Source: a virus
Virus record (IMG/VR): IMGVR_UViG_3300009094_001034
Coordinates: 1-64,000 of that record
Reading direction: 5' to 3' (one strand)
DNA: 64,000 nt
A model generated the notes under the pieces. That model had not been told where the DNA came from and searched no databases. It saw nothing but the letters and a program-made list of their open reading frames with translations. Both the position numbers and the translations under genes were made by a program. Numbering within the stretch: position 1 is the first letter of the stretch; each line of letters opens with the position of its first letter. This document shows positions 1,478-60,614 of the stretch, one piece after another.

Positions 1478-2791
1478 CTACTTCTTCCCACCCGGTGCTA
1501 GGAGCTGTGCTAGGTCGAACGCCTCGCGACCCGTCGAGACCGCGGCCTCGATCGGCGCCATGAGGGCCGGGGTCTTCGAGGCGAGGAGGTGGGCGTACTG
1601 GGCGAGCGTGAACCGGGCGTCGGTGTGACCGAGTTGCCGCTGGAGCATCTTCAGTGCCCCTTCACCGCCGTTCGCGAGGATGTGGGAGGCGAAGGTGTGC
1701 CGGAAGTCGTGCCAGCGGATCGAGACGCCTTGGGCTTCGCGTGCGCGGGCGAACTCCCGGTGGAGATTGCGCGCTTCGAGGACGGGCATACGGGCGGCGC
1801 GCCTCGCCCTCACCTTCTCATCGGCGTCCTTCGGGACGGCCTGAGTGCGGGCGGGGAAGACGAAGTCGATCCACTGGTCTTCGAATGCCCGGTCGTAGCG
1901 CCGGCTGATCCTGCGGGGAAGACGGGCAGCGCCGTACTTCGCGACGACGTGGATGATGAACTCCTTCCGTGCCTCGTTCTCGGCAGCGCGCTGCGCCTTG
2001 TAGCGGAGCAGGAGTGCGGAGAGGGAGGGCGGGATGGCGACGGTGCGGACACCGGCTTCGGTCTTCGGCTCGACCTTCTGGCCCGTGGCCTGATCTCTCG
2101 ATGCGCGGATGGTGATGGTGTGCTCGGCGAGGTCGATGTCCACCCATTGGAGGGCGAGGACCTCGCCCTGGCGCATGCCGGTGAGGGCGCAGATCGCGGC
2201 GGCGATGTTGAAGGGTGTCCGCATCGCTCCGACGATCTTCAGCGCGTCCTTCAGGGGAGTGGCTTCGATCTGGGTCTTCGGGACCTTCGGGTACTCGAAG
2301 TAGACCGTCACGTCGCGCTTGAGCGTGCCGAACTTGAAGGCGTCTTCGAGCACGGAGATCATCGTCTGCAAGACGTTCTTGCGGTACTTCGGGGACTTCC
2401 CTGACGCGATCGAGGGCTCGATCTGGCGGAGCCGTTCGGGCGAGAAGTCGCGTAGCCGGATGTCGCCGATCTCGGCGTCCAGGGTCCGGAGGTGCGAGAG
2501 GACGGTACGTTCCATCGAGGGTTTGAACGGGCGCGTGCCCCGCATGCGGGTCTGTACCCAGTCGTTCGCGTACTCGCGGAAGGGAGTCTTGTCGGAGAGC
2601 TTCGGCTTGGGGCCGCGGGGATGCGCGATGAGTTCGGCCTTGCGGGTGGCCTGTGCGTCTTTCGCTTTGTTGATCGTGGGGTGCGTGCCGGCGGAGTAGG
2701 TCTTCCCTCCGACATTCACGGTGGCCTCGTAGGTCTTCCCGCGCTTCGAGATGCCGGGGGCGACTTTCGTGCGCTTGAAGCGGTTCTTCAT
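1478..2791 (-). CDS. int: Tyrosine recombinase (phage integrase)
   Basis: A 437-aa site-specific recombinase that should catalyse integration and excision at the adjacent tRNA attachment site. It has an N-terminal arm-binding-like domain (about residues 1-60, with a basic RTKVAPGISKRGKTY stretch), a core-binding SAM-like domain (about 68-165) and a catalytic domain (about 175-420). The catalytic residues R207 (TGMRQGE), H361/R364 (HDFRH), H389 (LGH) and nucleophile Y399 are all visible. The ATG at 2791 has a GGAGG Shine-Dalgarno 5 nt upstream and overlaps the previous gene by ATGA, so the longer in-frame ORF up to 3073 is rejected. The length is normal for the family. Confidence 0.95.
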   Translation of the reverse strand: MKNRFKRTKVAPGISKRGKTYEATVNVGGKTYSAGTHPTINKAKDAQATRKAELIAHPRGPKPKLSDKTPFREYANDWVQTRMRGTRPFKPSMERTVLSHLRTLDAEIGDIRLRDFSPERLRQIEPSIASGKSPKYRKNVLQTMISVLEDAFKFGTLKRDVTVYFEYPKVPKTQIEATPLKDALKIVGAMRTPFNIAAAICALTGMRQGEVLALQWVDIDLAEHTITIRASRDQATGQKVEPKTEAGVRTVAIPPSLSALLLRYKAQRAAENEARKEFIIHVVAKYGAARLPRRISRRYDRAFEDQWIDFVFPARTQAVPKDADEKVRARRAARMPVLEARNLHREFARAREAQGVSIRWHDFRHTFASHILANGGEGALKMLQRQLGHTDARFTLAQYAHLLASKTPALMAPIEAAVSTGREAFDLAQLLAPGGKK

Positions 2792-3057
2792 GACGCCTCC
2801 GTTTCGTAGAGCAGTTGTCCGTACAGGTCGTCCCCGAGCAGGGCGTACAGACGGTCGATGGTTGGATGCGATGGTTCGCGGAGAGCGAGATCCGCAAGGT
2901 GGGCGAGTGCCTCGGGTGCGGTGGTGACGCCCGTGATCGTGCAGCGGAGCGAACGACCGCCGTTGCGGATCGTCACGTTCTCGCCGCGGACGGTGATGGT
3001 GAGGCCCGCGAGGTGGATGAAGCGGGCTACGGACATCTTCTCGATTGCGTGTGGCAT
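2788..3057 (-). CDS. Small hypothetical protein upstream of integrase (89 aa)
   Basis: Unrecognised 89-aa protein translationally coupled to the integrase (ATGA overlap). It starts at an ATG with a GGAGG Shine-Dalgarno. The sequence has a short beta-rich middle (LTITVRGENVTIRNGGRSLRC) followed by a helical C-terminus. Its position is where phages often carry an excisionase or directionality factor, but there is no clear helix-turn-helix, so that is only a possibility. Confidence 0.65.
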   Translation of the reverse strand: MPHAIEKMSVARFIHLAGLTITVRGENVTIRNGGRSLRCTITGVTTAPEALAHLADLALREPSHPTIDRLYALLGDDLYGQLLYETEAS

Positions 3058-3173
3058 ACGGCCTCCATGTCAAAGGGCGACCTCAGAGTGCGGAGGTGGG
3101 CGAGGAGCCGTCGAGAGGTCCAGGACCGCTGTACGGACCCCCTACGAGCTCCCAGCCCACCTTCCGGAGGCGA

Positions 3174-3799: not shown

Positions 3800-4861
3800 G
3801 TGGGTAACAAAACGCGGCATGGAGATGTGACAAAAAGTGCGCGGCAACACGTCATCGACGGGTTCCGCGAAGGGAGCGCGGTCGCAGCGGCACTCCGAGC
3901 AGACGCCGAATTTCTCGCAACGAGGATTCCGAAGGCGCTCCGACCGCTCGCGGTGCAGTTCTACGAAGATACGGCTGCTGCGATAGAGGGAAAGCGGATC
4001 GAGAAGACGGCGCCCATTCGAAGTGGGGAGCTGTTCGAGATGTTCGCGGCACAGGTTCGGATGATCGAGCCAGATGAAGCCATGGTGCGCGTCGACGGCG
4101 AAACGCGAGAGGCGGTGCGCGAGAAAATTCACAAGCTCAAGCGCGCCATCATGGATTGCCCGTTCGAGGCTGGCATCCCGAACATTGCCCGAGCGTATTA
4201 CCGCTTTCGTTTTCCCGAGGTCGTTCGTGGAGCGTGGGACCAGACGTACAGCTTGTACCTCGACATCGATGTGGAGTTCACGAGTCCAGAGGCCCTCTTT
4301 CGACAGGCGCTCTTGTACGAACTGTTCAAGGCGACCCCGCGCGATTACCTTCAGCGCATTCTTCAGGCGGATATCCTTGGAGATACGAATGTGCAGTACG
4401 TGTACGATCTGGCGCGCGAGCCCTCATTCGAGAGGTTTGTAGAAGCGACCACACTCCTCGAGAAGATCGGGGCGGCTCTATGGACAGACGAACGCGCGAG
4501 TTTTCTCAATCGGGTGTTTCACTACGACGTCCAGCCGGCCACGCTAGCGCACGCGCTCTTTGCGTGGACGTACATCATTGCGGCGCACGACCTGCACGAT
4601 GACGCCACGGAGAGCGACGCTTGGCCGCTTGTGTCCACGGAGTGCTTGACGCTCACTGAGAAGCTCGTTGCACTCGACGTGCTGAAGGAGCATGGCAAGA
4701 GCGTACTCCGCCCGCTCTTTCGTGTCCTGATGGCCATGGGGCAGCGCGAATCCTATTCAGTAGACCTCGGGGAGGTCATCGAGGATGCAAAGGTGAAGGC
4801 TCGGGATGAAGCACGGGCCATGACGCGGAGCGATGTCGCGATTAAAGCGATGGAGCCGTGA
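3800..4861 (+). CDS. Hypothetical protein, lone plus-strand gene (353 aa)
   Basis: A mainly helical, soluble 353-aa protein of unknown function; no transmembrane segment, nuclease motif or P-loop is visible. GTG at 3800 is preferred because GAGGAG lies about 6 nt upstream; a GTG at 3827 is the alternative. It is the only plus-strand gene between the integrase side and the replication cluster and ends convergently, overlapping the last 20 bp of the RNase H gene. Isolated opposite-strand genes at this place in temperate phages are often lysogenic-conversion or exclusion genes, but nothing in the sequence proves this. Confidence 0.7.
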   Translation: MGNKTRHGDVTKSARQHVIDGFREGSAVAAALRADAEFLATRIPKALRPLAVQFYEDTAAAIEGKRIEKTAPIRSGELFEMFAAQVRMIEPDEAMVRVDGETREAVREKIHKLKRAIMDCPFEAGIPNIARAYYRFRFPEVVRGAWDQTYSLYLDIDVEFTSPEALFRQALLYELFKATPRDYLQRILQADILGDTNVQYVYDLAREPSFERFVEATTLLEKIGAALWTDERASFLNRVFHYDVQPATLAHALFAWTYIIAAHDLHDDATESDAWPLVSTECLTLTEKLVALDVLKEHGKSVLRPLFRVLMAMGQRESYSVDLGEVIEDAKVKARDEARAMTRSDVAIKAMEP

Positions 4862-7850: not shown

Positions 7851-7878
7851 TTGACCTTTTTGCCCTGACATGTAGGCT
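7851..7878 (+). promoter_or_regulatory. Divergent plus-strand promoter
   Basis: TTGACC (7851-7856), 16-bp spacer, TAGGCT (7873-7878). It fires away from the replication promoter into a stretch whose genes lie on the opposite strand, so the transcript would be antisense to 8036-8975 unless a very small ORF is hidden there. Confidence 0.45.
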
Positions 7879-8035
7879 GTGAATGCATCCGTGAAGAAGG
7901 TGCTGCGAGGAGCCTTGGGGCACGTCCCAGGGCCTCTTGCATGCGACCCAACAACCCGGAGGTCTGAGGCGCGTGTGCACAGCGCCCCAGAGTCCTCGCG
8001 GGAGTGGGTGCGGATTCCACCACGAATCCCTTTGC

Positions 8036-8356
8036 TTAGCGGAGAAGAACGTACCCGAAGAGAAGCGCGATCGAGACGGCTGTTGCCAGAATGCCGGGAG
8101 TGAAGACGCGATCCCGGAGCGAGCGGAACGACGAGCGGACCCGCGAACGCTTCTTCCCGGTTTCAGCCGGGACGTGCGCGGGGCGACGAACGACGATCCC
8201 ACAGGTCGGAACCGAGCAGCAGAGCTGCACTTCAATCGAACCACCGATGAGGGTGGTTTCGACATTCAGCCAAGCCGTCCGATCGTGCAGCTTGCATGAA
8301 GGACATTTCTCATCGGTCGGAGCGCGCTTGCGCACGCCTGTAATTTCGCCAGTCAT
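8036..8356 (-). CDS. Small zinc-ribbon protein with C-terminal membrane anchor
   Basis: A 106-aa protein with a KCPSCKLHD...CCSVPTCG cysteine pattern (two CxxC-like pairs, residues ~20-52), a basic linker and one C-terminal transmembrane helix (GILATAVSIALLFGYVLL). The predicted layout is a cytoplasmic zinc-binding head held at the membrane by its tail. The start ATG overlaps the previous gene's stop (ATGA). Function unknown. Confidence 0.65.
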   Translation of the reverse strand: MTGEITGVRKRAPTDEKCPSCKLHDRTAWLNVETTLIGGSIEVQLCCSVPTCGIVVRRPAHVPAETGKKRSRVRSSFRSLRDRVFTPGILATAVSIALLFGYVLLR

Positions 8357-8730
8357 ACGAGAGCATGGCGAAACGAGAGCTCGGCACGAGCTTCCTGCAG
8401 GATGTCCGAGGATGCGTCGGAGACTTCGATGCGGTTGTACCCCGCCGTGGCGCGGTACTCCGCAGGAGAGCCTTCCGGCCATTCGAAGAGAAGAACTCTT
8501 CCGAGTTCCATCCATTCGTGGATGACCTCGATGTCGCGGGCGACACCGATGAGCGCACCGTCTTCATCCAGAAGCAAGTGTGTAAAACCAAATAGGTCGA
8601 GCTGCATAGCAGTAGGGATAAGTGGTGAGCATGATTCAAAGAGCCCGTCAGTCGCGAGACTGACGTGTGGATCGTGGTGGTATCCGCGGTACGCATCTGA
8701 CCACGCGACGCGCGCTCGGTCCGAACGCAT
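8353..8730 (-). CDS. Hypothetical protein (125 aa)
   Basis: Unrecognised 125-aa soluble protein with several short beta-type segments (HLLLDEDGALIGVA, RVLLFEWPEG) and an acidic helical C-terminus. ATG 8730 is preferred; upstream in-frame residues are not convincing as coding. It lies between two small zinc-binding proteins in a minus-strand cluster upstream of the replication genes. Confidence 0.55.
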   Translation of the reverse strand: MRSDRARVAWSDAYRGYHHDPHVSLATDGLFESCSPLIPTAMQLDLFGFTHLLLDEDGALIGVARDIEVIHEWMELGRVLLFEWPEGSPAEYRATAGYNRIEVSDASSDILQEARAELSFRHALV

Positions 8731-19979: not shown

Positions 19980-20258
19980 ATGTCTGTACGTGCGAAGTTC
20001 GTCCTCAACAGCTACGAAGCAATGACGCAGCCCCAGTCTCGCCAGAAGGATGATGGGAGTTGGGAGCAGTTGCCACCCAAGGAGATGCGCACGCTCGTTC
20101 TGCGCCCGGTCTACTCTGACAAGCCGGAGTCAGAGAACAAGAAGTTTTGGGATGCAACGCCCACTGGCGAGATTCGTCTCGGCACTGTGAACCCCGCAGC
20201 GTGGGAGCAGTTCGAGATCGGAAAGGAATACTACGTCGACTTCACGCCCGCGGAGTAG
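19980..20258 (+). CDS. Small hypothetical protein (92 aa)
   Basis: Unrecognised beta-rich 92-aa protein (VRAKFVLNSYEAM ... EIGKEYYVDFTPAE), 18 bp after the protein with the SSB-like tail and probably co-transcribed with it. The pattern looks like a small OB- or SH3-like barrel. Leader CACCACATTCACC. Confidence 0.6.
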   Translation: MSVRAKFVLNSYEAMTQPQSRQKDDGSWEQLPPKEMRTLVLRPVYSDKPESENKKFWDATPTGEIRLGTVNPAAWEQFEIGKEYYVDFTPAE

Positions 20259-20284
20259 TAACTCCCTACGCACCTTTCAATTTT

Positions 20285-21011
20285 GGGAACGAACAGAGGA
20301 ACATCGCGACCTCTCACCATCCGAACGCTGAAAGTCCGCTTCATGCGGTGTGTCCATCGAGGGGCGTAAGCCTTCGACCGGGGTCAATTACACCCGGTCA
20401 CTCGAAGGGATCTAGGCCAGTAGGTGAATACAACGGTACACAACCCAGTCGCGTCTATCGCGTGCTGCCGCCCCGGCGTCGGGGGCACACCCGCCGAGGA
20501 AACTAGCTGTGCGAATCCGGGAGAGTTGTGCGGGTGAGAGGTCTCGGTGTTTCTCGGCACGGGTCTCGATGCGTACGCAACGAGGACGTTAGACCACGAT
20601 GAGGGCGCGCCTGATTCGCGGTTCGGGGGGATCGGTGGGAAGCGAAGGCGTCCACCACCCGTGCTCGTGTAGAGGTAGCCCGTAGAGAGCGGAGGCGGAC
20701 TGTAAATCCGCTGGCCCTGTTGACCCCTGTAGGTGCGACTCCTCCCCTCTACACCGTTCGTTCCCCGGCTCGCGGTTCCGCGTCAGGCGTCTCCACTGCT
20801 GTCCCTTTGCAGATAGCAACGACGCCTGGGGCGGGCCCTCGAAGGCCGCACCGTCCTCTGTCGCAGCAATGCGAGCACCGCAGGTACTAACGCCCACAAG
20901 GCTACAGTCATGCGGTGTCGGAAGAACGACGAGCAAGCTAACGCCCGCTCGCTCGGGAAAACGGGAGAACAATCTGACTGGCCCCGCCGCTCTGGTGGGG
21001 CCACTGGTCAG
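20285..21011 (+). ncRNA. Large structured RNA (~730 nt), GOLLD/ROOL-like candidate
   Basis: The 785-bp gap 20259-21043 has no believable ORF but is packed with helices. A 10-bp perfect long-range pairing (GGGAACGAAC 20285-20294 with GTTCGTTCCC 20756-20765) encloses about 460 nt including the tRNA. Others are ACCGGG/CCCGGT (20377-20398), CCTTCGA/TCGAAGG (20371-20408), CAGGCGTC/GACGCCTG (20784-20828), TCGCA-GCAA-TGCGA with a GNRA loop (20861-20874), CACCGCA/TGCGGTG (20876-20917) and a closing CTGAC-TGGCCCC/GGGGCCA...GTCAG hairpin (20974-21011). Large ornate phage RNAs of the GOLLD and ROOL classes lie beside tRNAs, so this is a candidate member or a new class. Confidence 0.65.
20669..20755 (+). 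tRNA. tRNA-Tyr (anticodon GTA) embedded in structured RNA
   Basis: Cloverleaf features: acceptor GTAGAGG/CCTCTAC (extendable to 9 bp), anticodon stem GCGGA/TCCGC with loop CTGTAAA (GTA at 20702-20704), a long class II variable region, a T-stem with one mismatch and loop TGCGACT, and discriminator A followed by CC. The D-arm is weak and the T-loop is unusual (G at position 55), so it may be degenerate or a tRNA-like element of the larger RNA. CCA is not fully encoded. Confidence 0.65.
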
Positions 21012-21043
21012 ACCGCACACATCACCATTCCCATTCACACCCT

Positions 21044-21346
21044 ATGGCTCTGCATCCGCTGGGGGATTACGTCCTCCTCAAACCGATCCGCGAAACCCAT
21101 ACCGCTTCCGGGCTCGTCATCCCCGACACGATCAAGGATCGGAAGTCGGACCGCGGCGAAGTGATCTCCGTAGGACCGGGCAAGGTACAGGAAGACGGCA
21201 CGCGCAGCCCGATGGAGGTGAAGGCGGGCGACCGCGTCATTTTTTCCAAGTACGCATCTGACGAGATCGAAGTTGATGGTGAAGAACTGCTCATCATTCA
21301 AATGCACGACGTAAAGGGAATCATCGTCCCTGCCAACGCCCGATGA
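21044..21346 (+). CDS. groES: GroES co-chaperonin
   Basis: A 100-aa co-chaperonin. It opens with LHPLGDYVLLKPI (family PLxDRVLVKP), has a mobile loop RETHTASGLVIPDT and the conserved VGPGKVQEDGT and VKAGDRVIFSKY strands. It forms the heptameric lid on the GroEL ring encoded 165 bp downstream. Leader CATTCCCATTCACACCCT, no Shine-Dalgarno. Phage-encoded GroES is unusual, and its pairing with GroEL implies a complete phage chaperonin. Confidence 0.95.
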   Translation: MALHPLGDYVLLKPIRETHTASGLVIPDTIKDRKSDRGEVISVGPGKVQEDGTRSPMEVKAGDRVIFSKYASDEIEVDGEELLIIQMHDVKGIIVPANAR

Positions 21347-21510: not shown

Positions 21511-23100
21511 ATGGACGCAAAGGACATTACGTACGGCGACGAGGCGCGTGCAAAACTCGCCTCCGGCATCAGCAAACTAGCTCGTGCAGTAGCAGTGACG
21601 ATCGGTCCGAAAGGCCGAAACGTTCTTCTCCCGAGCCCATTCGGCGCTCCGAAAATCGTGAACGATGGCGTAACGATCGCACGGGAAGTCGAACTCGAAG
21701 ACCCGCTGGAGAAGATGGGCGCGGATCTTGTGAAGGACGTTGCGTCGAGGACGAACGACATCGCGGGCGACGGGACCACCACCGCAACGGTCCTCGCGGA
21801 CGCAATGGTGCGCTCCGGGCTGCGGAACCTCGCGGCCGGCTCCAACCCGATGGCGATGCGGACGGGAATCGAGCAGGCGGTCGAACAGGTCGTGCAGAAA
21901 CTCGACGCGATGTCGCAGAAGGTTGAAGGCAAGATGATCGAGCACGTGGCCACGATCTCGTCCCAGGACCCTGAGACCGGAAGGATGATCGCCGAGGCAA
22001 TCGAGAAGATCGGAACGGGACCGATCACCACGGAGAACTCGGATACCCGGGGCCTCACGTTGGAGATCAAGGAAGGGATGCAGTTCGACAGCGGCTACAT
22101 CTCGGCACACATGGTGACCGACGAGGAGCGCTCGACTGCGACGTACGAGAACGTGCACATCCTCGCGTTCGACGGGAAAGTGACCGGCCCGCAGGAGGTG
22201 ATCCCGATTCTCGAAGGCTGCATGAAAGCGGGGATCAAGGAACTGCTCCTCATCGTCGAGGGTGTCGAGGGAGACGCCCTTCCCACACTCGTCGTGAACA
22301 AACTCCGTGGTGTATTCCACTCGGTGGCGGTGCGTGCGCCCGGCTACGGCGATCGCCGAACCGCTATGCTGCAGGACATCGCAGTGCTCACGGGAGGAAC
22401 AGCGGTCTCTCCCGCGCTCGGAATGGATATCTCGAAGTTCGAGCTCGGCTGGCTGGGCCGAGCGTCCAAGGTGATCGTGACAAAGGACGCGACGACCATC
22501 GTGGGCGGCAAGGGCGAGAAGCTTGCGATCGAGAACCGCGTCGCGCAGATCCGGAAGGAACTGGAGGATGCGAAGACGGACTTCGAGAAAGAGAAACTCG
22601 AGGAGCGGCTCGCGAAGATCGCCGGGGGGGTCGCCGTGATCAAGGTGGGCGCCGCCACCGAGATCGAGCTCAAGGAAAAGAAACTTCGTATCGAGGACGC
22701 CATCAACGCGACCCGCGCGGCAGTGGCGGAGGGCGTCGTCGCAGGAGGCGGCTACGCACTGCTCCTCGCTCGTGAGGCCATCGACCGCAAGGGGACGGAC
22801 GACCAGTCCACGGGACGCCGGATCGTCTTCACCGCGCTCGATGCGCCGGCGCGTCAGATCGCGGAGAACGCGGGCCAGGACGGAGCGGTCGTGGTCGCGG
22901 AGTCCATCCGCCTCAAGGCTGGCTACAACGCTGCGACGGACGAGTATGTCGATCTCGTGAAAGCGGGCGTCATCGATCCGTGCCTCGTTACGAAGTCCGC
23001 TCTCCAGCACGCCGCGTCGGTCGCAGCCTCATTCCTCACCTGCGAGGCGGCGCTGTCGCCGAAACCGGAGAAGCCCCAGTCAGACGCGCTGCACGCGTGA
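21511..23100 (+). CDS. groEL: GroEL group I chaperonin
   Basis: 529 aa, essentially full length. Equatorial ATP-site motifs are intact: VTIGPKGRNVLL, NDGVTIAREVELEDPLEKMGA, AGDGTTTATVLADAM and VVAGGGYALLLA, with DAxxATRAAVAEG in the intermediate domain (family DALNATRAAVEEG). The apical domain (about 190-370) is present. The C-terminus (PKPEKPQSDALHA) lacks the usual GGM repeats. It probably folds phage capsid or tail proteins in a phage-specific GroEL-GroES chamber. Leader AACCACCCACCCTCAAC, no Shine-Dalgarno. Confidence 0.97.
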   Translation: MDAKDITYGDEARAKLASGISKLARAVAVTIGPKGRNVLLPSPFGAPKIVNDGVTIAREVELEDPLEKMGADLVKDVASRTNDIAGDGTTTATVLADAMVRSGLRNLAAGSNPMAMRTGIEQAVEQVVQKLDAMSQKVEGKMIEHVATISSQDPETGRMIAEAIEKIGTGPITTENSDTRGLTLEIKEGMQFDSGYISAHMVTDEERSTATYENVHILAFDGKVTGPQEVIPILEGCMKAGIKELLLIVEGVEGDALPTLVVNKLRGVFHSVAVRAPGYGDRRTAMLQDIAVLTGGTAVSPALGMDISKFELGWLGRASKVIVTKDATTIVGGKGEKLAIENRVAQIRKELEDAKTDFEKEKLEERLAKIAGGVAVIKVGAATEIELKEKKLRIEDAINATRAAVAEGVVAGGGYALLLAREAIDRKGTDDQSTGRRIVFTALDAPARQIAENAGQDGAVVVAESIRLKAGYNAATDEYVDLVKAGVIDPCLVTKSALQHAASVAASFLTCEAALSPKPEKPQSDALHA

Positions 23101-24465: not shown

Positions 24466-24854
24466 ATCCACAGGCAGCGTTCCATGCATTCCAGGACGCG
24501 AAGAAAGAGCTGAAGATCGCCCGCGACGCCTACAAAGATGCGCAGGCTTCGGACACCACGCTCGCGGATCTCGCCGAGGCGAAGAAGCAAGCCGCAGCCG
24601 ACTACAAGGCCGAGAAGGAGCAGTTCGACGGCCGTCATGCGCATCTCGTCGAAACGATCGCCGAGAAGAAAGAGGCACAGGACGACGCCAGGACGCTGTT
24701 TGATGAAACCGTGGAGATGGCTGTCCGCCGCGGCGAGCAGTTATCGCTCTTCACGAGGTCGGGAAAGGAAGTCTCGATCCAACTCACGACGAAGATCACG
24801 ATTGAGCGCGATGTGAAGAAAGAGGCTGCAGAACCTGGCGGCAAAGGAGAGTGA
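24462..24854 (+). CDS. Coiled-coil protein (130 aa)
   Basis: Highly charged protein predicted to be a long coiled coil (about 1-95, KKELKIARDAYKDAQ ... EKKEAQDDARTLFDE) with a short beta C-terminus. It starts four bases before the previous gene's stop. Function unknown. Confidence 0.6.
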   Translation: MNPQAAFHAFQDAKKELKIARDAYKDAQASDTTLADLAEAKKQAAADYKAEKEQFDGRHAHLVETIAEKKEAQDDARTLFDETVEMAVRRGEQLSLFTRSGKEVSIQLTTKITIERDVKKEAAEPGGKGE

Positions 24855-25798
24855 GCTTCGCGTTTACGTGTCAGCACTGTGGAGTGACGTTCAGTAGGCG
24901 GCAGAGTGCTCCGGCGACCTGGTGCTCGCGAGAATGTCGCGGTAAGGCTACATCTCACGTCTTGTCGGCGCGTTTTAAGGGGGTTCCGAAGTCGGCTGAG
25001 CACAAGAGGAAGATTGGACTCGCACTTAAAGGGAAGAAGAAGCCATACGCCGCAAGGAACCTCGTGCACGGGTCGGGGAAAGACAATCCGTTCTTTGGGC
25101 GACATCACTCTGAGGAAACCAAAGAACGGTTGCGCGAGGCGGCCGTTAGAAACCACGGCCTATTTCGAGCTGGAGCAAGAGAGACCGCACCCGAGCGCGC
25201 ACTCTACGCTTTGCTCACGAGGCTCGGGATCGAGTTCGAGAAGCAGAAGAAAATTCCAGGAATCTCAATCCCCGATGCGATTGATGAAAAGAGACAAGTG
25301 GCGTTCTACGCGGATGGTGACTACTGGCACCAGCTGCCTGAGTATGTAGAGCGTGATCTGCGCATAAACAAGAGACTGCGAAATCGAGGATGGATCGTAC
25401 TCCGCTTCTGGGAACACGAACTCCTCGAATTCGCCGACCTTGTTGAAGAGATCATCGTCGGTACGTACCACATTCCTCCGCCACGTCGGTTTGCGTACGT
25501 GGCTGGTGCCTACAGAGCCGCCACGGAATGGGGTGTAACACAGAACATCGAGCGTGCTCGAAGCATGGCGGCTCAGCTCCTCGCAGAGGGTGACTACTTC
25601 CCCGTCACGCCCCACCTCATGACTGCGCACCTCGGCGGCATCGTTGAGGACGACGTGCTCGTGGAGCACTACATCGACATCATCGCGAATCTCTGTAGCG
25701 TCGTTGTGATGTTGAAGGGCTGGGAGCGCTCTGAGGGCGCAAGGAAAGAGCACGACGCGGCGCTCCGCCTCGGGATCAAGATCATCTACGAGACCTGA
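24851..25798 (+). CDS. Fusion of zinc ribbon, NUMOD3 repeats, Vsr-like endonuclease and DUF4406/deoxyribosyltransferase-like domain
   Basis: Four parts are visible in 315 aa. A zinc ribbon (C7, C10, C25, C29); two NUMOD3-type DNA-binding repeats (SAEHKRKIGLALKGKKKP; NPFFGRHHSEETKERLREA); a Vsr/DUF559-type nuclease (ERALYALLTRLGIEFEKQK ... DGDYWHQLP ... RNRGWIVLRFWEHEL, about 113-205); and a C-terminal DUF4406-like segment (FAYVAGAYRAATEWG ... SVVVMLKGWERSEGARKEH), a relative of nucleoside 2-deoxyribosyltransferases. It starts with GTG overlapping the previous stop. The nuclease half looks like a homing endonuclease joined to a nucleotide-metabolism gene. Confidence 0.75.
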   Translation: MSFAFTCQHCGVTFSRRQSAPATWCSRECRGKATSHVLSARFKGVPKSAEHKRKIGLALKGKKKPYAARNLVHGSGKDNPFFGRHHSEETKERLREAAVRNHGLFRAGARETAPERALYALLTRLGIEFEKQKKIPGISIPDAIDEKRQVAFYADGDYWHQLPEYVERDLRINKRLRNRGWIVLRFWEHELLEFADLVEEIIVGTYHIPPPRRFAYVAGAYRAATEWGVTQNIERARSMAAQLLAEGDYFPVTPHLMTAHLGGIVEDDVLVEHYIDIIANLCSVVVMLKGWERSEGARKEHDAALRLGIKIIYET

Positions 25799-29206: not shown

Positions 29207-31042
29207 GTGGCGGTCAATCGTGCCGACCGAACTCTGTTGGCGACGATGTGCGGTCTACTCAGCGGCCGAGCGTTAGACAGTCTCGCGTGCGAGAATCATC
29301 TCGTGGAAGCGGGATTTAGGTTCTCTTCTCTTGAGATCCACGATTTTCGTGGCATCCGACAGATGAGTCTCGCCCTGCCGATGAAGGCGCCCGTGTATCT
29401 CATCGGCGCGAACAACTCTGGAAAATCCACTGTGTTGAATGCCGTCGCGCTCGTGCTGCGCGGGGGCGGGTTCCACACGTTCACGCCGGAGCCCTTCGAC
29501 TTCTTCCACGCCCCGGACGGAACGCCAAGCGAGAAGTTCAGCATTGACCTGATTCTGGAGGCGACGGACGGAGCGCTACCGGCCGTGCAAGGTGCGGGCT
29601 CCCCGGTCGATGTGCATCGGATACGCGTGACGGGATCAACAGAGAAGGGCGGCCGGCTGACACATCGCCACGTCCTCACATCGAAAGACGCGAAGCCGAT
29701 TATGTTGTCGCCACGCACACCGTTGAAGGGCGACCTGAAGGAAAAGTACAAAGGCCAGGATGTTGGGTGGACGCAGCGGTATGCACGCCCCGACGACATC
29801 CGGAAGTGCCTTCCGGACGTGTGGCTGGTGACGCCGGAGAATCTCGAACGGTCGCTGTACCACTGGAAGACCGGGCCGCTCATGAAACTGAGTCAGCTCC
29901 TCTCCCGAAGATTCTTCGAGGTGGAGTGGGATTTCGAGCATGACGGCAAAATCAGGAAGATGCCGAAGACGATGGAGAGCGTCCATCGCTTCTTCCGCGA
30001 CGCGGTGGATGCGTTCCCGTTCTGGAAAGACGAGTTACGCCCCCAACTCGAAGACGCGCTGTCGAGGTACCTCGGTCGGCAGGCATCCGTGCAACTGCGC
30101 CCCGACATCCAGGATATCCATGACTGGCTCGCGCAGCAGTTGATGGCATCGTTCGCTGCGGACAGCGGTGGGACAGTGACGCCCCTCGAGCGCATGGGTG
30201 CCGGCTGGCAGGCGCTCGTGCGGGTGGCGGCGCTCGATGTTCTTCGAAAGTACCCGGAGGAAATCAGCGATGACGTGGTCCTGCTCTACGAAGAGCCGGA
30301 GACCTACCTTCACCCACACCTGCGTCGGCGACTGCGCGATGTGCTGGAAGACCTGGCGGGCGGTGGATGGACGGTCATTGCCGCGACGCACTCGCCGGAG
30401 TTCGTGACGTTCGGTGGGAAGCAGCAGATCCATCGTTTGTGGCGCAGCGGCGCGGATGTGATCCCCGGATCGCTCTCCACTGAGAAGGTGGAGCGCGCGG
30501 CGCAGTTCCAAGAGAAACTCGACGAGCACGGCAACCACGAGTTCCTGTTCGCGAGTAAGGCAATCTTCGTCGAGGGGAAGGATGATGCCTTTGCAATCCG
30601 AACGGGACTGCGAAAGCTGGCGACGGATCTCGACGGGAGGGGTGTCAGTATCCTCGGCGTGGGCGGGGTGAATAACCTGCCGGAGTACGCGCGGATGGCG
30701 AGCGAACTGCGCATCCCCTGGTGTGCGATCACGGACGAGGATCTGCTAGCAGATGGGACGGTGAAGCCGGGAACATCCGAGGTGCGAAAGACACTCACGA
30801 AGCGCGCGAAAGCGGGGGACCTACTCGCACAGTGGGATGGTTCGCTCGAAGCGCTCCTCTGTCGAACGGAAGGCAAAGCACACCCTGAGTGGCAGGCGGA
30901 CGAGATCGAACCACTGTCGCTCGAAGAGCTCAGGACGAAGCATCCAACGTTCGTGTCTGAGTGCACGAAAGTCCAGGTTTGGATCGACCAGACCGGGAGC
31001 ACGGTCTCACCAGGATCCAAGACTGAGCACGCATCCGAGTGA
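29207..31042 (+). CDS. OLD-family ATPase with TOPRIM nuclease domain
   Basis: Overcoming-lysogenization-defect type protein. The ABC-ATPase half has Walker A GANNSGKST (68-75), a signature-like ERMGAGWQAL and Walker B VVLLYEEPETYLHPHL; the C-terminal TOPRIM half has FVEGKDDAF and ITDEDL acids. Related proteins exclude other phages (P2 Old, Gabija GajA), but no helicase partner lies beside it. The start is uncertain: GTG 29207 is used, while GTG 29303 would begin right before the conserved FSSLEIHDFRGI. A lone plus-strand insert in the minus-strand late block, i.e. a moron. Confidence 0.88.
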   Translation: MAVNRADRTLLATMCGLLSGRALDSLACENHLVEAGFRFSSLEIHDFRGIRQMSLALPMKAPVYLIGANNSGKSTVLNAVALVLRGGGFHTFTPEPFDFFHAPDGTPSEKFSIDLILEATDGALPAVQGAGSPVDVHRIRVTGSTEKGGRLTHRHVLTSKDAKPIMLSPRTPLKGDLKEKYKGQDVGWTQRYARPDDIRKCLPDVWLVTPENLERSLYHWKTGPLMKLSQLLSRRFFEVEWDFEHDGKIRKMPKTMESVHRFFRDAVDAFPFWKDELRPQLEDALSRYLGRQASVQLRPDIQDIHDWLAQQLMASFAADSGGTVTPLERMGAGWQALVRVAALDVLRKYPEEISDDVVLLYEEPETYLHPHLRRRLRDVLEDLAGGGWTVIAATHSPEFVTFGGKQQIHRLWRSGADVIPGSLSTEKVERAAQFQEKLDEHGNHEFLFASKAIFVEGKDDAFAIRTGLRKLATDLDGRGVSILGVGGVNNLPEYARMASELRIPWCAITDEDLLADGTVKPGTSEVRKTLTKRAKAGDLLAQWDGSLEALLCRTEGKAHPEWQADEIEPLSLEELRTKHPTFVSECTKVQVWIDQTGSTVSPGSKTEHASE

Positions 31043-46593: not shown

Positions 46594-47499
46594 TTAGGCG
46601 CCGCGTACCGGGAGTCCGAGCGTCGGACGAACGCACTTCACCCCGTAGAGCACGTCGTAGGTCTGAAGGACCGCGAGGTCCTTCTGCGACCAGGACGAGG
46701 TGTAGCGGATGCCGAGCTTGCCCTGCGGGTCGTAGGCGACGGCGCTCTTCACCGCGCCGCCGAAGTCGGCGGACGGGTCGTAGAGCGCGGCCGACGCCAG
46801 CGCGAGCGCGTCCGGATGCATGGCGATGTTGTTGTCGCCACCGCCCGCGCGGGAGATGTTCTGATCCATGTAGATCGTGAAGCCGAGCAGGTTGGTCAGC
46901 TTCGCGTCCTGGATCGCCGAGGTCGAACCGATGGTGTTCGCCTGGATGAACAGCGACTGCGACAGGAAGTCGCTCTCGGTCTGGGTGCCGACGATCATCA
47001 CGAGGCCATTCGGCGCCTTGGCGTCCTTCAGGCGCTTCCCCGCGAGGCGGATGGAAGCCGGATCGGCAGCGGTACCGAGGGTACCAACGGCGGTGCCGGT
47101 GAAGTTCGCAGACTCAGCGACGAGGTCGTCGTCGATCTGGTCGGCCAGCGCCTTCATCGCGCTGTCGGCGAACATCTGCATGTCGTCGTCGATCATGAGC
47201 GTCTTCGCGACGTCCTCGACGCCCGTGGAAGCCTCGTAGTGCTTGTCGAGCGTGATGGTGGTGTTCGCGTAGCTCGGAGCCTGGAGGGTGATTTCCGTCT
47301 GAACCGCCTTCGCGTTCACGGAGACCGTGAGCGGGTTGAGGATGTTCACGCGGTCGCCCTTCTTCTTGAACTCCTTCTCCCACGTGCGGTTGACGATGCC
47401 GGGGAGCACGACATGGTTGGAGAGAGCCTCAAGGCCCTTGTTCGCGTAGATCTGCGGGATATTCGCCGCAGCGGTGGTTTTAGAAACGATTGTTGCCAT
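46594..47499 (-). CDS. Major capsid protein (301 aa)
   Basis: A 301-aa P22-coat/HK97-fold-type capsid protein: N-terminal arm with IPQIYANKGLEAL, a WEKEFKKKGDRVNI segment and a peripheral region VEDVAKTLMIDDDMQMFADSAM, then an A-domain. It follows protease and scaffold genes, the usual order. Leader AACCCCCAACGCCACCC with no Shine-Dalgarno, despite being the protein made in greatest amount. Confidence 0.85.
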   Translation of the reverse strand: MATIVSKTTAAANIPQIYANKGLEALSNHVVLPGIVNRTWEKEFKKKGDRVNILNPLTVSVNAKAVQTEITLQAPSYANTTITLDKHYEASTGVEDVAKTLMIDDDMQMFADSAMKALADQIDDDLVAESANFTGTAVGTLGTAADPASIRLAGKRLKDAKAPNGLVMIVGTQTESDFLSQSLFIQANTIGSTSAIQDAKLTNLLGFTIYMDQNISRAGGGDNNIAMHPDALALASAALYDPSADFGGAVKSAVAYDPQGKLGIRYTSSWSQKDLAVLQTYDVLYGVKCVRPTLGLPVRGA

Positions 47500-54355: not shown

Positions 54356-56152
54356 ATGGCGAAGAAGAACGGCTCTACCTTCACGAGTGAAGACCTTCAG
54401 AGTCAGGACACCTACGTGGAGAAGTTGGAGCAACAGCATTTCTCGTATCCCCTCATCGCGGCCGAGTCGTTCGTCCGCGGCATGCGCGAGTCCGGCTACA
54501 AGTCGACCGCGACGGCACTGAACGAGTTGATCGACAACGCCATCCAGGCACAGGCCCGGAACGTCGACGTGATCCTCGGCTACAACGCCGGCAACAAGAC
54601 GAAGAAGAAGCCCGACATGCTGGCCGTCGTAGATGACGGCCACGGAATGCGGGAGAAGATGATCAAGGCCTCCGTCATGTGGGGCGGCACGCACCGCGAG
54701 AACGACCGTCACGGCTTCGGCCGGTTCGGGTTCGGACTCCCGAGCGCGTCCGTCTCGATCGCGCGCCGCTTTTCGGTGTACTCGAAGGCCCCTGGCGACA
54801 AGTGGTTCGTCATCGTCATCGACCTGGACGAAATCGCGTTGGGCCGCGCGACCGACGAGAAGGGCGTGGTGAAGGTGCCGGAAGCGGTACTGGCGGAACT
54901 GCCCGAGTTCGTGAAGCCCTACGCCTCCGGCCTGGAGCACGGGACCGTCATCCTGCTGGAGAAGTTGGACCGGCTGTCGAACGGATTCGTGACGTCGCAG
55001 GCATTCAAGCAGAACGAACTGCACCAGGTCGGCGTGACGTATCGCGAGATCCTGCGCGACGTGCAGGTCCGCGTCATCGACATCGGCGAGGAATTGGACA
55101 TCACGGCCGTCGAGCCGATCGATCCGTTGTTCCTCCGCCCGGACGCGCGGTACTACGACGAGACCGACGTCCACGCCGAGCCCCTGCCAGACTTGGCGTT
55201 CGAGGTGAAGCCGTCCGAGGAGTCGCCGTACGGCGGCGTCGTGCGTGTGCGGTACGCCTACATGCCCCCGGGGTTCCTGCCGGATGAGTCGAAGCGTTCC
55301 AGCCCCCGCCTCAAGGTCCGCAAGGAGAACACGGGCCTCATCATCATGCGCGCCGGCCGCCAGATCGACGTCGTGACGAACGGTCCGAAGTTCAGCGTCG
55401 ACTCCAACGACCGTCATTGGGCGTGCGAGGTGATCTTCGAGCCCACGCTGGACGAAGACTTCAGCGTGACCACGAACAAGCAGCAGATCGTGATCAAGGA
55501 CCGGATCTGGGAGGCGCTGCGGCAGAACGGCGTGTTCGACGCCATCCGCCAGATGCGCAATCGGTACGGGAAGGATCATGGCTACACCAAGGGGAAGAAG
55601 GCCGAGTCCGAGCCGAAGGTGTCCGAGGAGATCGCGACCGAGGCCGCCAAGTTCTTCGGCCGGAAGCCGACGAAGCCGAGCGTCGCGAAGGAGAAGAAGC
55701 TGAAAGAGGCGCTCGACCGCGAGGCGGTGAAGGTCGCCGAGCAGAAGGGCACGAGCCCGGAGGAAGCGAAGAAGGTGATCGAGGCCGAGACGGCTGAGAA
55801 ACCCTACAAGCTCTTCTTCGAGTCCGGCCGCGGAGAGTTCTACCGCGTCGAGCAGTTGGGCGGCCAGAAGCAGCTCTACATCAACACGTCCCACCGCTTC
55901 TACTCCGACGTCTACAACAACCCGCTGACGACGAACCGCATGCGCACCGCGCTGGAGTTGCTGCTGTTCACGATGGGCGCCTGTGAGCTCGAGTCTGAAG
56001 GCGACCGGGAGATGTTCTACACGAATGAGCGCGTCGAGTGGACGCGGCGGCTCGACACGTATCTGCAGTTGCTGGATCGTCGCGATCCGGTCGCCGATGC
56101 CCGAGCGGCCGAAACCACGCGCGCCGAGGCCGAAGACGAGTCGGCGGCGTAG
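54356..56152 (+). CDS. GHKL-fold ATPase A (MORC/Hsp90-like, 598 aa)
   Basis: N-terminal GHKL ATPase domain: N-box ALNELIDNAIQA (E57, N61), G1 box VVDDGHGM (D94), G2 loop GRFGFGLPSAS (122-132). A transducer-like beta/alpha domain follows (to about 400), then a charged coiled-coil C-terminus (KVSEEIATEAAKFFG ...) with a final acidic tail. The layout is closest to MORC/Hsp90-type ATP-gated clamps. It is neither histidine kinase (no H-box) nor MutL (no MutL C-terminus). Shine-Dalgarno AGGAG. First gene of the island. Confidence 0.85.
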   Translation: MAKKNGSTFTSEDLQSQDTYVEKLEQQHFSYPLIAAESFVRGMRESGYKSTATALNELIDNAIQAQARNVDVILGYNAGNKTKKKPDMLAVVDDGHGMREKMIKASVMWGGTHRENDRHGFGRFGFGLPSASVSIARRFSVYSKAPGDKWFVIVIDLDEIALGRATDEKGVVKVPEAVLAELPEFVKPYASGLEHGTVILLEKLDRLSNGFVTSQAFKQNELHQVGVTYREILRDVQVRVIDIGEELDITAVEPIDPLFLRPDARYYDETDVHAEPLPDLAFEVKPSEESPYGGVVRVRYAYMPPGFLPDESKRSSPRLKVRKENTGLIIMRAGRQIDVVTNGPKFSVDSNDRHWACEVIFEPTLDEDFSVTTNKQQIVIKDRIWEALRQNGVFDAIRQMRNRYGKDHGYTKGKKAESEPKVSEEIATEAAKFFGRKPTKPSVAKEKKLKEALDREAVKVAEQKGTSPEEAKKVIEAETAEKPYKLFFESGRGEFYRVEQLGGQKQLYINTSHRFYSDVYNNPLTTNRMRTALELLLFTMGACELESEGDREMFYTNERVEWTRRLDTYLQLLDRRDPVADARAAETTRAEAEDESAA

Positions 56153-56169
56153 CCGACAGGGACCAACGG

Positions 56170-56199
56170 AAGGCCCGGGTTCTCCCCGGGCCTTTTCGT
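56170..56199 (+). terminator. Intrinsic terminator between the two ATPase genes
   Basis: AAGGCCCGGG pairs with CCCGGGCCTT (10 bp, 5-nt loop), followed by TTCGTT. It would limit expression of the downstream genes relative to ATPase A. Confidence 0.75.
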
Positions 56200-56214
56200 T
56201 CATGAGGAGAACGA

Positions 56215-57678
56215 TTGAAGAATGGAGAGATCATCGCGCTGGCGACCTTCATCGACGCCATCCGTGACGCCGGGTACCGGGGCACGCCCGCAGCGATCGC
56301 CGAGTTGGTGGACAACGCCATGGAGGCCGGAGCGACGAACATCACCATCGAACTCTGGACGACGGACGACGGAACGTCGGTGTACGTAGCCGATAACGGC
56401 TGCGGCATGCCGCCCGAGACGATCCGCCTCGCCCTGCAGTTCGGCGGCAGCACCCGCTTCGATTCCCGCGCGGGGCTCGGGCGGTACGGTATGGGGCTCC
56501 CAGGAAGTTCGATCAGTCAGGCATTGCGTGTCGACGTGTATTCGTGGACGACGCGCGGTGCGGCCTGGTGGACCTTTCTGGATGTCCCGATGATCCGCGG
56601 CGGCGCCCTCGTAGCCGTGCCGAAACCGCGGCGTGCCACGCCACCCGTGGGACCGCGAGAGACGACGAGCGGCACCATCGTCCAGTGGACACACTGCGAT
56701 CGCATCCCGAGCATCACCCCACGCCTCCTGCGGGAGATCCACGAGACCATCGGCCGGCTGTTTCGGACGTTCCTGTGGGCCGGAGCCACGATCACCGTGA
56801 ACGGCGTCGAGGTGCAGCCCGTTGATCCGCTTTTCCTGCGGCCGTCAGCGGCGCCGGTCGGAGCACGCCAGTACGGCCCGGAGTTGATCTTCCCCATCAC
56901 CCTCCGAGACGGGAACAGGAAGCGCCACGCCACCGTGACGGCGCAGTTCGTCGAACTGCCGATCGCGGAGTGGGAAGGGCTTTCGAATGCGGAGAAACGG
57001 AAGTATCGGATCTCCAAGTCTCCCGGCATCTCCATCCTCCGCGCCGACCGGGAGATCGACACCGGCTGGTTCTTCATGGGATCGAAGCGGAAGGAGAACT
57101 ACGACGATTGGTGGCGTGCGGAAGTGCGGTTCAGCCCCGAGCTCGACACGTTCTTCGGCGTGACGCACACGAAGCAAGGGATCCATCCGACCGCCGAGAT
57201 CGAGGCCATCTTGTCGCCGCAGATGGAGCGGATCGCACATGACCTGAACGCCCGCGTCCGGAAGACGTTTCTCCGCGTTCGGGCGACGGAGCCGAATACC
57301 CGCGCGATCGACTACGCCTCTGCTCGGGACCACCGGTTGGAGCCGCCGAAGCGTGCGGTTCGCCGCGGCGCAATGAAGGCGAAAACACGAGGATTGACCT
57401 ACTCCATCGAACACGCGAAACTCCCCGGCCCGCGGTTCTTCGCCGTGCGGATCTCAGACGGCCGGGTCAGAATCATCCTCAACGAGGATCACCCGTTCTA
57501 CACGGTCGTTTACGGGGACAATCGGAAGCGCGATGCGACACAGGATCGTCTCGCGCAGTTGGAAATGATGCTCCTTGCAGCAGCGCGCGCGGAAGTCCAG
57601 TGTGTGCGAAAAGAGAAGGTGGAGGCGAGGGCGTTTCTCCAACAGTGGAGCGATGCTCTCCGGACGTTTTTGACCTAG
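56215..57678 (+). CDS. GHKL-fold ATPase B (487 aa)
   Basis: Paralogue-like second GHKL ATPase: N-box AIAELVDNAMEAG (E30, N34), G1 VADNGCGMPP (D60), G2 GLGRYGMGLPGSS (87-99). Then VQPVDPLFLRP, RDGNRKRH and SPGISILRADREIDTG, segments shared with ATPase A (EPIDPLFLRP; NTGLIIMRAGRQIDV), showing common ancestry. TTG start with AGGAGA 5-6 nt upstream. The pair may form a heterodimeric clamp. Confidence 0.85.
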   Translation: MKNGEIIALATFIDAIRDAGYRGTPAAIAELVDNAMEAGATNITIELWTTDDGTSVYVADNGCGMPPETIRLALQFGGSTRFDSRAGLGRYGMGLPGSSISQALRVDVYSWTTRGAAWWTFLDVPMIRGGALVAVPKPRRATPPVGPRETTSGTIVQWTHCDRIPSITPRLLREIHETIGRLFRTFLWAGATITVNGVEVQPVDPLFLRPSAAPVGARQYGPELIFPITLRDGNRKRHATVTAQFVELPIAEWEGLSNAEKRKYRISKSPGISILRADREIDTGWFFMGSKRKENYDDWWRAEVRFSPELDTFFGVTHTKQGIHPTAEIEAILSPQMERIAHDLNARVRKTFLRVRATEPNTRAIDYASARDHRLEPPKRAVRRGAMKAKTRGLTYSIEHAKLPGPRFFAVRISDGRVRIILNEDHPFYTVVYGDNRKRDATQDRLAQLEMMLLAAARAEVQCVRKEKVEARAFLQQWSDALRTFLT

Positions 57679-59655
57679 ATGGCGGATGAACGAGAGTGGT
57701 TCCCTTTTCAGCCCGAGCTCGGGCAGCACGTCGAGGAGTTCACGACGTTCGCTACGCGCTTGGCTGAAGCCACAGACCTGAAACCGCTGCGACTCGAGGT
57801 GCTCCGGGAACTCGACCGGGCGAAGAACGGCGCGCTCCCGCTCCACATGGTCCAGAGCATTGCCCTCGACCTCGCCGATCAGGGCTGGGGATTCAGCGTC
57901 GATCGAGACGGGATCGCATGCTCCGCTCCATCTGTCGCGGATGAATGCTCGGCGAGCGCAAAGACACGCATCCGTCAGGGCCACGCTTTCGAGCGCTCCG
58001 CCCACCTGCGCGAACCCTCCGTCCAAGACTTCATTGCGGCGATGGAACAGCGAAGGCTCACGGCGAACGGCTGGCATTCGATCTACTCGCTCATGCGCGA
58101 TGGCCGGGAACTCGGCGCGAAGTTGGCTGCGGCCGCGACGCTTGAAGGCGCCGCGCGCGAGAAAGCGCTTGCAGCAGCGATTGATCCCTACATCCAGTTC
58201 GTTGATCCGGATGTCGTCGACGAGCACACGGGACTCCTCCTCACGGACATCTGGCGCTACTTCCGGATGACGTGGGTGAACATGCACAAGTCCGTTCCTG
58301 GCCGCACGATGATGATCCTCATCCGCGACCGAGCCGCGGCACAACATCCGGTCATCGGGATCGCGGCGCTCGCGAGCGCCGTGGCGCAGTTGGACCTGCG
58401 AGACTCGTGGATCGGATGGAATGCTGCGGCATTCCTCGACCACCTGGACAACGAAGGGAACGCAGCAGATGCGAAGTGGCTCCACGCATCCATCGACAAT
58501 CTCCTCGACGCGATCTACCTGAAGGATCTCCTCAAGGAGAAGATCATCAGCAAGGCGCTCATCGCGACGCCTACCGAGGACCTGATCCGAAACCTCCGGG
58601 ATGCGGCAGCGGAAGCGAAGAAGAAGCACCACCAGAACGCCGATGCCGCGGCGATGAAGCGCAAGGACGTCGCTTGGGAGGAGAAAGCGCTCCTGCCACT
58701 CTTTCGCGCGAAGCGCTGCGAAGCGCTGGCAAAACTCCTCGGTATCCGACTCGTGTTTCAGAAGGTCGGTTTCAGTACCGGCTCTAAGAAAGCGCTCGAC
58801 CTCGCACTCTCGCAGCCCTCAGCGCGGACGGCGATCGGCCAACTCGTGCGGGCAGTGAAGTCGGAGCACGTCGGTATCGACATGATGGACATTACAGTCT
58901 GCGGCGCGGTGGCGCCGTACAACCGCGTGCTCGGCGGGAAACTCGTGTGCACGCTCCTCACGAGCCCCGAAGTCGTGCAGGCGTACAAGCGACGGTACGA
59001 TGGCCAGGAAAGCATCATCGCGTCGTCCATCAAGGGCGCTCCGGTACGCCGAACGCCACGGCTCGTGCTGCTCTCCACGACGAGTCTCTATGGCCGCGGC
59101 TCAAGCCAGTACAACCGCGTGAAGATCCCGGCGGGCGTGGCGGGCGGAGCGGACGGGGATGTCGTCGAGTACCGACATCTCGGCCACAGTAAGGGCTTCG
59201 GGACCTTCCATTTCAGCGCCGAGACCGTGCGCGTCATCGATACTCTTCTCGCCAGACGCCAGGACGGAAAGCGGGTGAACTCCATCTTCGGAGAGGGCGT
59301 GAATCCGCGGATGCGGAAGATCCGCGAAGCGCTCGAATCCGTGCGGTTGCCGAGCGACGCCATCTTGAATCACGGCGTTCCGCGCGTTGTGTACGGCATC
59401 GCGCTCGCGTCGAATTTCCGCGACGTGCTCCTCGGTCGGCAAGACAAGCCGCGCTACGTGATCCCGCAAACGAAGCCTGCGGAGCGGTCGGCCCGGCTCG
59501 CGGCCTTCTGGCGAACGCGATGGCTATCCAATCGCATCAATGATCCTGCGGTGCTCTCGGACATTGCGGAGCACACGCTGTCGTACCCCGTGACGCATGG
59601 AGCTCGCGTCGTCGGTCCGCCTATTGAAGGAGATGAGAACGAGACCCTATGGTGA
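57679..59655 (+). CDS. DruA/DUF4338-like protein (658 aa)
   Basis: N-terminal ~200 residues unrecognised and helical. The middle has LRDSWIGWNAA (241-250), resembling the RDxWIGW of DruA/DUF4338 proteins of Druantia-type anti-phage systems. The C-terminal half has CGAVAPYNRVLGGKL (408-422) and TTSLYGRGSSQYNR (467-480), invariant-looking blocks I associate with the same superfamily. Starts directly after ATPase B's stop and overlaps the next gene by 7 bp, so it belongs to the same operon. The biochemical function of this family is not established. Confidence 0.7.
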   Translation: MADEREWFPFQPELGQHVEEFTTFATRLAEATDLKPLRLEVLRELDRAKNGALPLHMVQSIALDLADQGWGFSVDRDGIACSAPSVADECSASAKTRIRQGHAFERSAHLREPSVQDFIAAMEQRRLTANGWHSIYSLMRDGRELGAKLAAAATLEGAAREKALAAAIDPYIQFVDPDVVDEHTGLLLTDIWRYFRMTWVNMHKSVPGRTMMILIRDRAAAQHPVIGIAALASAVAQLDLRDSWIGWNAAAFLDHLDNEGNAADAKWLHASIDNLLDAIYLKDLLKEKIISKALIATPTEDLIRNLRDAAAEAKKKHHQNADAAAMKRKDVAWEEKALLPLFRAKRCEALAKLLGIRLVFQKVGFSTGSKKALDLALSQPSARTAIGQLVRAVKSEHVGIDMMDITVCGAVAPYNRVLGGKLVCTLLTSPEVVQAYKRRYDGQESIIASSIKGAPVRRTPRLVLLSTTSLYGRGSSQYNRVKIPAGVAGGADGDVVEYRHLGHSKGFGTFHFSAETVRVIDTLLARRQDGKRVNSIFGEGVNPRMRKIREALESVRLPSDAILNHGVPRVVYGIALASNFRDVLLGRQDKPRYVIPQTKPAERSARLAAFWRTRWLSNRINDPAVLSDIAEHTLSYPVTHGARVVGPPIEGDENETLW

Positions 59656-60598: not shown

Positions 60599-60614
60599 CG
60601 GTTATTCTTCTGCC

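Follow-up and report, generated by a model that had tools for sequence, protein, structure and literature searches.

A predicted large structured RNA with a degenerate tRNA-Tyr-like arm in the gap upstream of groES in an uncultivated bacterial virus

The locus described here belongs to an uncultivated integrase-bearing bacterial virus whose record in IMG/VR, IMGVR_UViG_3300009094_001034, is 97,173 bases long. The window, meaning the whole stretch of DNA that was analyzed, covers positions 1 to 64,000 of this record (G+C 62%), and its gene content includes a terminase, a portal, a P22-like coat protein, a minor tail protein, a DnaB helicase, a phage integrase, GroES, and GroEL. By protein comparison, the phage appears to lack close relatives in the collections that were searched, its nearest matches standing at 35% for the terminase (IMG/VR), 57% for GroEL, and about 52% over its length for a 92-aa protein encoded just ahead of groES. 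The 92-aa gene stops at 20258 and groES starts at 21044, leaving exactly 785 nt (20259-21043) between them, and both flanking genes lie on the + strand. The principal features of this locus are as follows.

19980-20258, + strand: gene for a 92-aa phage protein (phrog_6978), upstream of the gap
20285-21012, + strand: predicted large structured non-coding RNA of about 728 nt that fills the gap, proposed from fold z-scores and the lack of a coding signal
21044-21346, + strand: groES (phrog_3188), downstream of the gap
21511-23100: GroEL gene (phrog_5725)

An initial annotation made from the sequence had described a 785-bp ORF-free gap here, and this description holds to the nucleotide. A hidden protein, which that annotation had named as the signal that would speak against its RNA reading, was sought on both strands; every overlapping ORF has a negative codon log-likelihood, and the protein-coding reading was rejected because the likelihood is negative throughout. 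Folded at full length, the + strand of the gap reaches -344.9 kcal/mol, with z-scores of -5.65 (20 shuffles) and -7.45 (14 other shuffles), and the reverse strand is somewhat structured too (z -3.06 and -1.74). As a control, 46 other 785-nt windows of the phage were folded on both strands and gave a mean z of -0.17 (sd 1.3) with a minimum of -2.55; the + strand fold excess of the gap is the most significant among all stretches tested. Windows of 400 nt slid across the gap region gave + strand z-scores of merely +0.2 to -2.5 because such windows sever the long-range helices, and the full-length fold test was preferred to them. The fold significance of the gap stems from long-range pairing, and only 36% of its nucleotides are in pairs with a pairing probability (P) above 0.9. 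When the sequence of the tRNA-like element described below was held fixed and the rest was shuffled, none of 320 folds was equally stable (z -4.8), and in 5 of the 320 no linker exceeded 1 nt while the closing helix had 8 bp or more. With moderate confidence, we take the gap to encode a large non-coding phage RNA, about 730 nt in length, known from one sequence and having a predicted fold. Significant folding is seen in two further gaps of the phage, one of 493 nt between diverging genes at 7872-8364 (z -4.6 and -3.3 on its two strands, with no relevant Rfam match) and one of 722 nt at 92182-92903 of the record, beyond the 64,000-base window (z -3.4 and -2.9 on its two strands).

The predicted architecture of the RNA, listed from 5′ to 3′, comprises these elements.

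20285-20294, + strand: 5′ strand of helix A (GGGAACGAAC), paired with 20756-20765 (10/10 complementary, P 1.00)
20296-20318, + strand: 5′ strand of helix B, forming 22 pairs with 20533-20555 (P 1.00)
20319-20532, + strand: domain inside helix B, with less certain folding (P 0.5-0.9)
20533-20555, + strand: 3′ strand of helix B, assigned from pairing probabilities
20556-20665, + strand: arm C (20556-20564/20657-20665) with three sub-hairpins (P 0.86-0.99)
20667-20754, + strand: tRNA-Tyr(GUA)-like arm, the fourth arm of the junction, with a 9-bp acceptor stem (ARAGORN tRNA-Tyr(gta), 20669-20755)
20691-20719, + strand: conserved anticodon arm and flank, a 29-nt match of 96.6% (28/29) to cyanophage tRNA-Tyr genes
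20756-20765, + strand: 3′ strand of helix A (GUUCGUUCCC), 1 nt past the paired part of the tRNA-like arm
20766-20848, + strand: hairpin D of the 3′ domain, long and imperfect (P 0.95-0.97)
20861-20955, + strand: hairpins E, F, and G of the 3′ domain (P 0.75-0.99)
20973-21012, + strand: closing hairpin H (P 0.98-1.00)

Four helices, namely A, B, C, and the acceptor stem of the tRNA-like arm, come together at one junction with linkers of 1 nt (20295), 0, 1 nt (20666), and 1 nt (20755), and the predicted fold is thus a tight four-way junction of A, B, C, and the tRNA-Tyr-derived arm. Helix A is a perfect 10-bp pairing that encloses 481 nt. A lone 10-bp match is unremarkable in 785 nt, since a rough estimate places 0.3-0.4 of them there by chance, and it is the whole fold rather than this match alone that exceeds chance. 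Helix B is the strongest long-range helix, and its equal was found in 1 of 300 shuffles and in 1 of 246 genome windows. Enclosed by helix B are a GUAA-capped (GNRA) hairpin, GGC-GUAA-GCC, at about 20362-20373 and a further helix at 20376-20383/20391-20399. Arm C carries two apical palindromes, UGCGUACGCA (20570-20579; GUAC) and GGCGCGCC (20604-20611), which could possibly make kissing contacts, a few such palindromes being expected by chance anyway. Hairpins D-H are predicted to form a 3′ domain separate from the junction, in which hairpin D begins at the first nucleotide past helix A and hairpin H has no T run after it and is therefore not terminator-like. Several of these elements had been picked out in the initial annotation, and the perfect 10-bp long-range pairing, the GNRA-capped hairpin (near 20363-20372), and the strong closing hairpin that it placed near 21011 were each recovered in the full-length fold. 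Its broader description of a gap full of strong helices stands as well, although it had missed the strongest long-range helix, B, and the four-way junction.

The tRNA-like arm is the sole tRNA that ARAGORN calls in the whole 97-kb record. The same program made 4 calls in 11.7 Mb of shuffled genome, and at this false-positive rate a chance tRNA within the gap is unlikely. Just as the initial annotation had placed a tRNA-Tyr-like element inside the long-range helix, the ARAGORN call abuts the 3′ strand of helix A; nonetheless, the element is degenerate and is not an ordinary tRNA gene. It retains the GUA anticodon, the anticodon arm, G1-C72, and A73, and the GUA anticodon, G1-C72, and A73 are tyrosine identity elements. 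Its acceptor stem of 9 bp is perfect, including a 2-bp extension, and the acceptor and anticodon stems are predicted with P 0.92-1.00. In contrast, the D-loop (TAGAGAG) lacks GG and the T-loop (TGCGACT) has U55 changed to G, and the standard elbow contacts G18-U55 and G19-C56 are therefore missing, at least in part. One mismatch occurs in the T stem, whose predicted pairing probability is about 0, a value to be read with the imperfect single-sequence folding of tRNAs in mind. Because these elbow contacts are lost, the 3′ end is tied into the junction, and that end reads A-C-C-G in place of A-C-C-A, with helix A starting at that G, the tRNA-derived arm looks no longer fit for decoding.

Comparison with known tRNA classes is in keeping with a degenerate element. 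The general tRNA model (RF00005, gathering cutoff 29 bits) did not report the arm at E<=10, and as a control the same model scores an ordinary phage tRNA-Tyr at 62.2 bits. Like phage tRNA-Tyr, the arm has the GUA anticodon, A73, and an anticodon arm and flank identical at 28 of 29 positions; unlike it, the arm has an extended acceptor, degenerate D and T arms, and, in the predicted fold, no free 3′ end. A match to tRNA-Sec (RF01852) reached 26.9 bits, under the gathering cutoff of 47, and a tRNA-Sec identity fails on this score and on the anticodon, which is GUA and not UCA. This weak match may be due to the extension of the acceptor stem to 9 bp, a length shared with tRNA-Sec and allo-tRNA, which are irregular tRNAs with long acceptors (PMC7609411); the arm further differs from tRNA-Sec in being embedded in a larger RNA. 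No tmRNA was called by ARAGORN, and none was matched by Rfam in the gap.

The retained features raise the question of whether the locus is a phage tRNA-Tyr gene within a structured precursor, from which RNase P and 3′ processing would release the tRNA while the helices hold the precursor or signal its trimming. ARAGORN accepts the tRNA, the CC is kept along with the anticodon arm, G1-C72, and A73, and helix A starts straight after A-C-C. However, the general tRNA model misses an element with these defects in its D-loop, its U55 position, and its T stem (mismatched and with P of about 0), the acceptor stem is extended by 2 bp, and a tRNA gene does not require 600 nt of structured surroundings that include a separate 3′ domain. 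A tRNA precursor is therefore unlikely in our judgment, even if it survives better than the other alternatives.

The position of the RNA suggests a second alternative. A scan for sigma-70-like promoters and for terminators near the gap recognized no promoter of that type and no + strand terminator. Since neither signal was recognized, and since the fold leaves only 26 nt of the gap ahead of it and 31 nt beyond it, cotranscription with the operon is likely. An element that immediately precedes groES on its own strand, at operon-like spacing and with no terminator found between the two, might act in cis as a leader controlling groES-groEL, for example through temperature or tRNA sensing or through read-through control. 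The details of the sequence argue otherwise. The 31 nt before groES are C/A-rich, like the leaders of many genes of the phage, and lie outside the predicted helices, and therefore no start-site masking is seen. Moreover, T-box, riboswitch, and RNA thermometer or thermosensor leader families were all lacking among the Rfam matches of the gap at E<=10, and the GroEL/GroES loci of other phages have no comparable element. We regard a groES leader as improbable and rank it below the tRNA precursor.

Homologues of the RNA were sought in several ways. A blastn search of the gap against GenBank phages and plasmids returned only tRNA-Tyr fragments, chance-level matches, or nothing. IMG/VR loci found through the GroES, 92-aa, 282-aa, TerL, and GroEL proteins were those of distant relatives only, and the RNA was in none of them; alignment-based searches covering 80 loci with relatives of the 92-aa gene and 80 GroEL loci likewise gave no RNA homologue, and genome contigs queried with the 92-aa protein and TerL gave nothing. 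BLAST against 50 whole related phage records produced short chance-level matches only, the best of which is situated among ORFs. A scan of IMG/VR with one 16-mer from the helix B domain gave a single match, which falls at the start of a protein gene and was taken as chance. A covariance model built from the single sequence of the 3′ domain had no match in about 1.33 Mb of related loci. As far as these searches reach, the gap RNA appears to be an orphan with no detectable relatives in the collections searched. One region was considered as a counterpart, a 640-nt structured stretch without long ORFs (4091-4730 of locus L033, from a 102-kb phage) that lies shortly downstream of a gene of the 92-aa family. 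It has a z of -3.75 on the + strand and a terminator-like hairpin at its end, and it has no Rfam or GenBank-phage match. It was rejected as a counterpart because its local alignment score of 25.5 falls within that of shuffles (mean 22.2, maximum 30) and it contains no tRNA. In the phage of L033, a tRNA adjoins groES (locus L128).

An orphan of this kind could also be a tRNA gene remnant plus non-coding DNA, decayed or assembled by chance, with a fold that is not under selection. The decayed tRNA features, the lack of homologues wherever they were sought, and the significant folding of further gaps of the phage are what such a history would leave. Yet the + strand fold excess of the gap tops that of all stretches tested, and decay does not favor a perfect acceptor stem that includes a 2-bp extension. 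Unselected sequence is in our estimation quite unlikely, falling behind both the tRNA precursor and the groES leader.

Large ornate phage RNAs are plentiful and have striking structures, and the gap fits this loose kind in being several hundred nucleotides long, non-coding, and folded beyond its shuffles. Over the window no Rfam family reached its gathering score, and within the gap Rfam at E<=10 gave nothing relevant besides the tRNA-Sec match. The initial annotation had likened the gap to GOLLD and ROOL RNAs and had proposed a search with their covariance models. The likeness stands for size, complexity, and the presence of a tRNA-like element; it does not extend to kinship or to a tRNA array, which the gap lacks. 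Neither the GOLLD model (RF02032) nor the ROOL model (RF03087) has a match at E<=10 in the gap or the whole record, although the ROOL model finds the pMP118 ROOL of L. salivarius at 130.4 bits as a positive control; the GOLLD search, for its part, reported sub-threshold matches in control genomes. Membership in either family was rejected on these grounds, and the gap RNA is, as judged by covariance models, not a detectable GOLLD or ROOL.

Resemblances to these and other phage RNAs are still instructive. GOLLD, like the gap RNA, is phage-borne, roughly 700-800 nt, two-domain, and elaborate, and tRNAs are sometimes found inside its linker (PMC12286853); a homo-oligomeric cage is a further trait of GOLLD. 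The linker of GOLLD that holds a tRNA is disordered, whereas the degenerate tRNA-like element of the gap is an integral arm of a tight predicted junction with no tRNA array or island. ROOL shares with the gap RNA a phage setting, a large size, and an ornate structure. Other phage RNAs fall outside the known families or at most resemble them, namely the orphan RNA of ICP1, which is abundant and about 800 nt long (PMC7567579), and the lncRNAs of phage K, which sit near tRNA genes (PMC9241854). These RNAs are large, ORF-less, and of phage origin, as the gap RNA would be, but they were observed by RNA-seq, whereas the gap RNA is a prediction with no match in the GenBank phage collection. A highly divergent GOLLD or ROOL member below detection, which the similar size, complexity, and phage setting and the tRNAs in some GOLLD linkers (PMC12286853) might bring to mind, is very improbable in view of the two unmatched models and of a tRNA that forms a tight predicted junction arm here rather than lying in a disordered linker.

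Ahead of the tRNA precursor, the groES leader, unselected sequence, and an undetected GOLLD or ROOL, we place a trans-acting RNA, a preference held with about as much belief as doubt. The RNA would be transcribed within the surrounding + strand operon and would then be trimmed or left as a stable RNA, which may act in trans, by analogy with proposals made for GOLLD, ROOL, and the orphan RNA of ICP1. For the tRNA-derived arm, the likeliest role is either to offer a docking handle to some partner that binds tRNA (the ribosome or tyrosyl-tRNA synthetase, for instance) or to be a structural arm borrowed from a tRNA gene. The chances seem to us evenly balanced that the gap RNA is a trans-acting stable phage RNA that uses its tRNA-derived arm as a structural or docking element and is GOLLD/ROOL-like in kind without being a member of either family. 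The docking handle taken by itself, with its putative binding, is the least certain step, and we are doubtful of it. More tentative again is the suggestion that the gap RNA represents a previously undescribed class of large phage RNAs, one that would hold a captured tRNA-Tyr fixed in its core four-way junction and present the anticodon arm of that tRNA to the host translation machinery. If true, a tRNA-derived arm welded into the core junction would tie large ornate phage RNAs to translation in a way that can be tested, its weight being limited by a single sequence without homologues.

The remainder of the window offers some additional observations on this phage. Many of its core genes are preceded by C/A-rich leaders without a Shine-Dalgarno motif, for example ahead of 19113, 21044, 21511, and 46594-47499, and AGGAG-type sites precede several of its accessory genes; the host may make little use of Shine-Dalgarno initiation. 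On the - strand, 1379-1439 resembles the 3′ half of a tRNA (RF00005, 18.1 bits), with a Met-type anticodon region (CAT) and the end ...GCAACCA, and directly adjoins the integrase gene at 1478-3073. It has the appearance of an attP core that would direct integration into a tRNA gene of the host. Two HATPase proteins whose matches are MzaB-like, a homologue of DruA (PADLOC E 3e-178), and a match to a methyl-directed restriction enzyme make the stretch from 54356 to 61421 a likely defense island. An OLD/GajA-like ATPase-TOPRIM nuclease at 29207-31042 is a possible defense gene as well. Finally, a single gene at 24851-25798 combines NUMOD3, Vsr/MTES-type endonuclease, and DUF4406 domains and is possibly a homing-endonuclease fusion.
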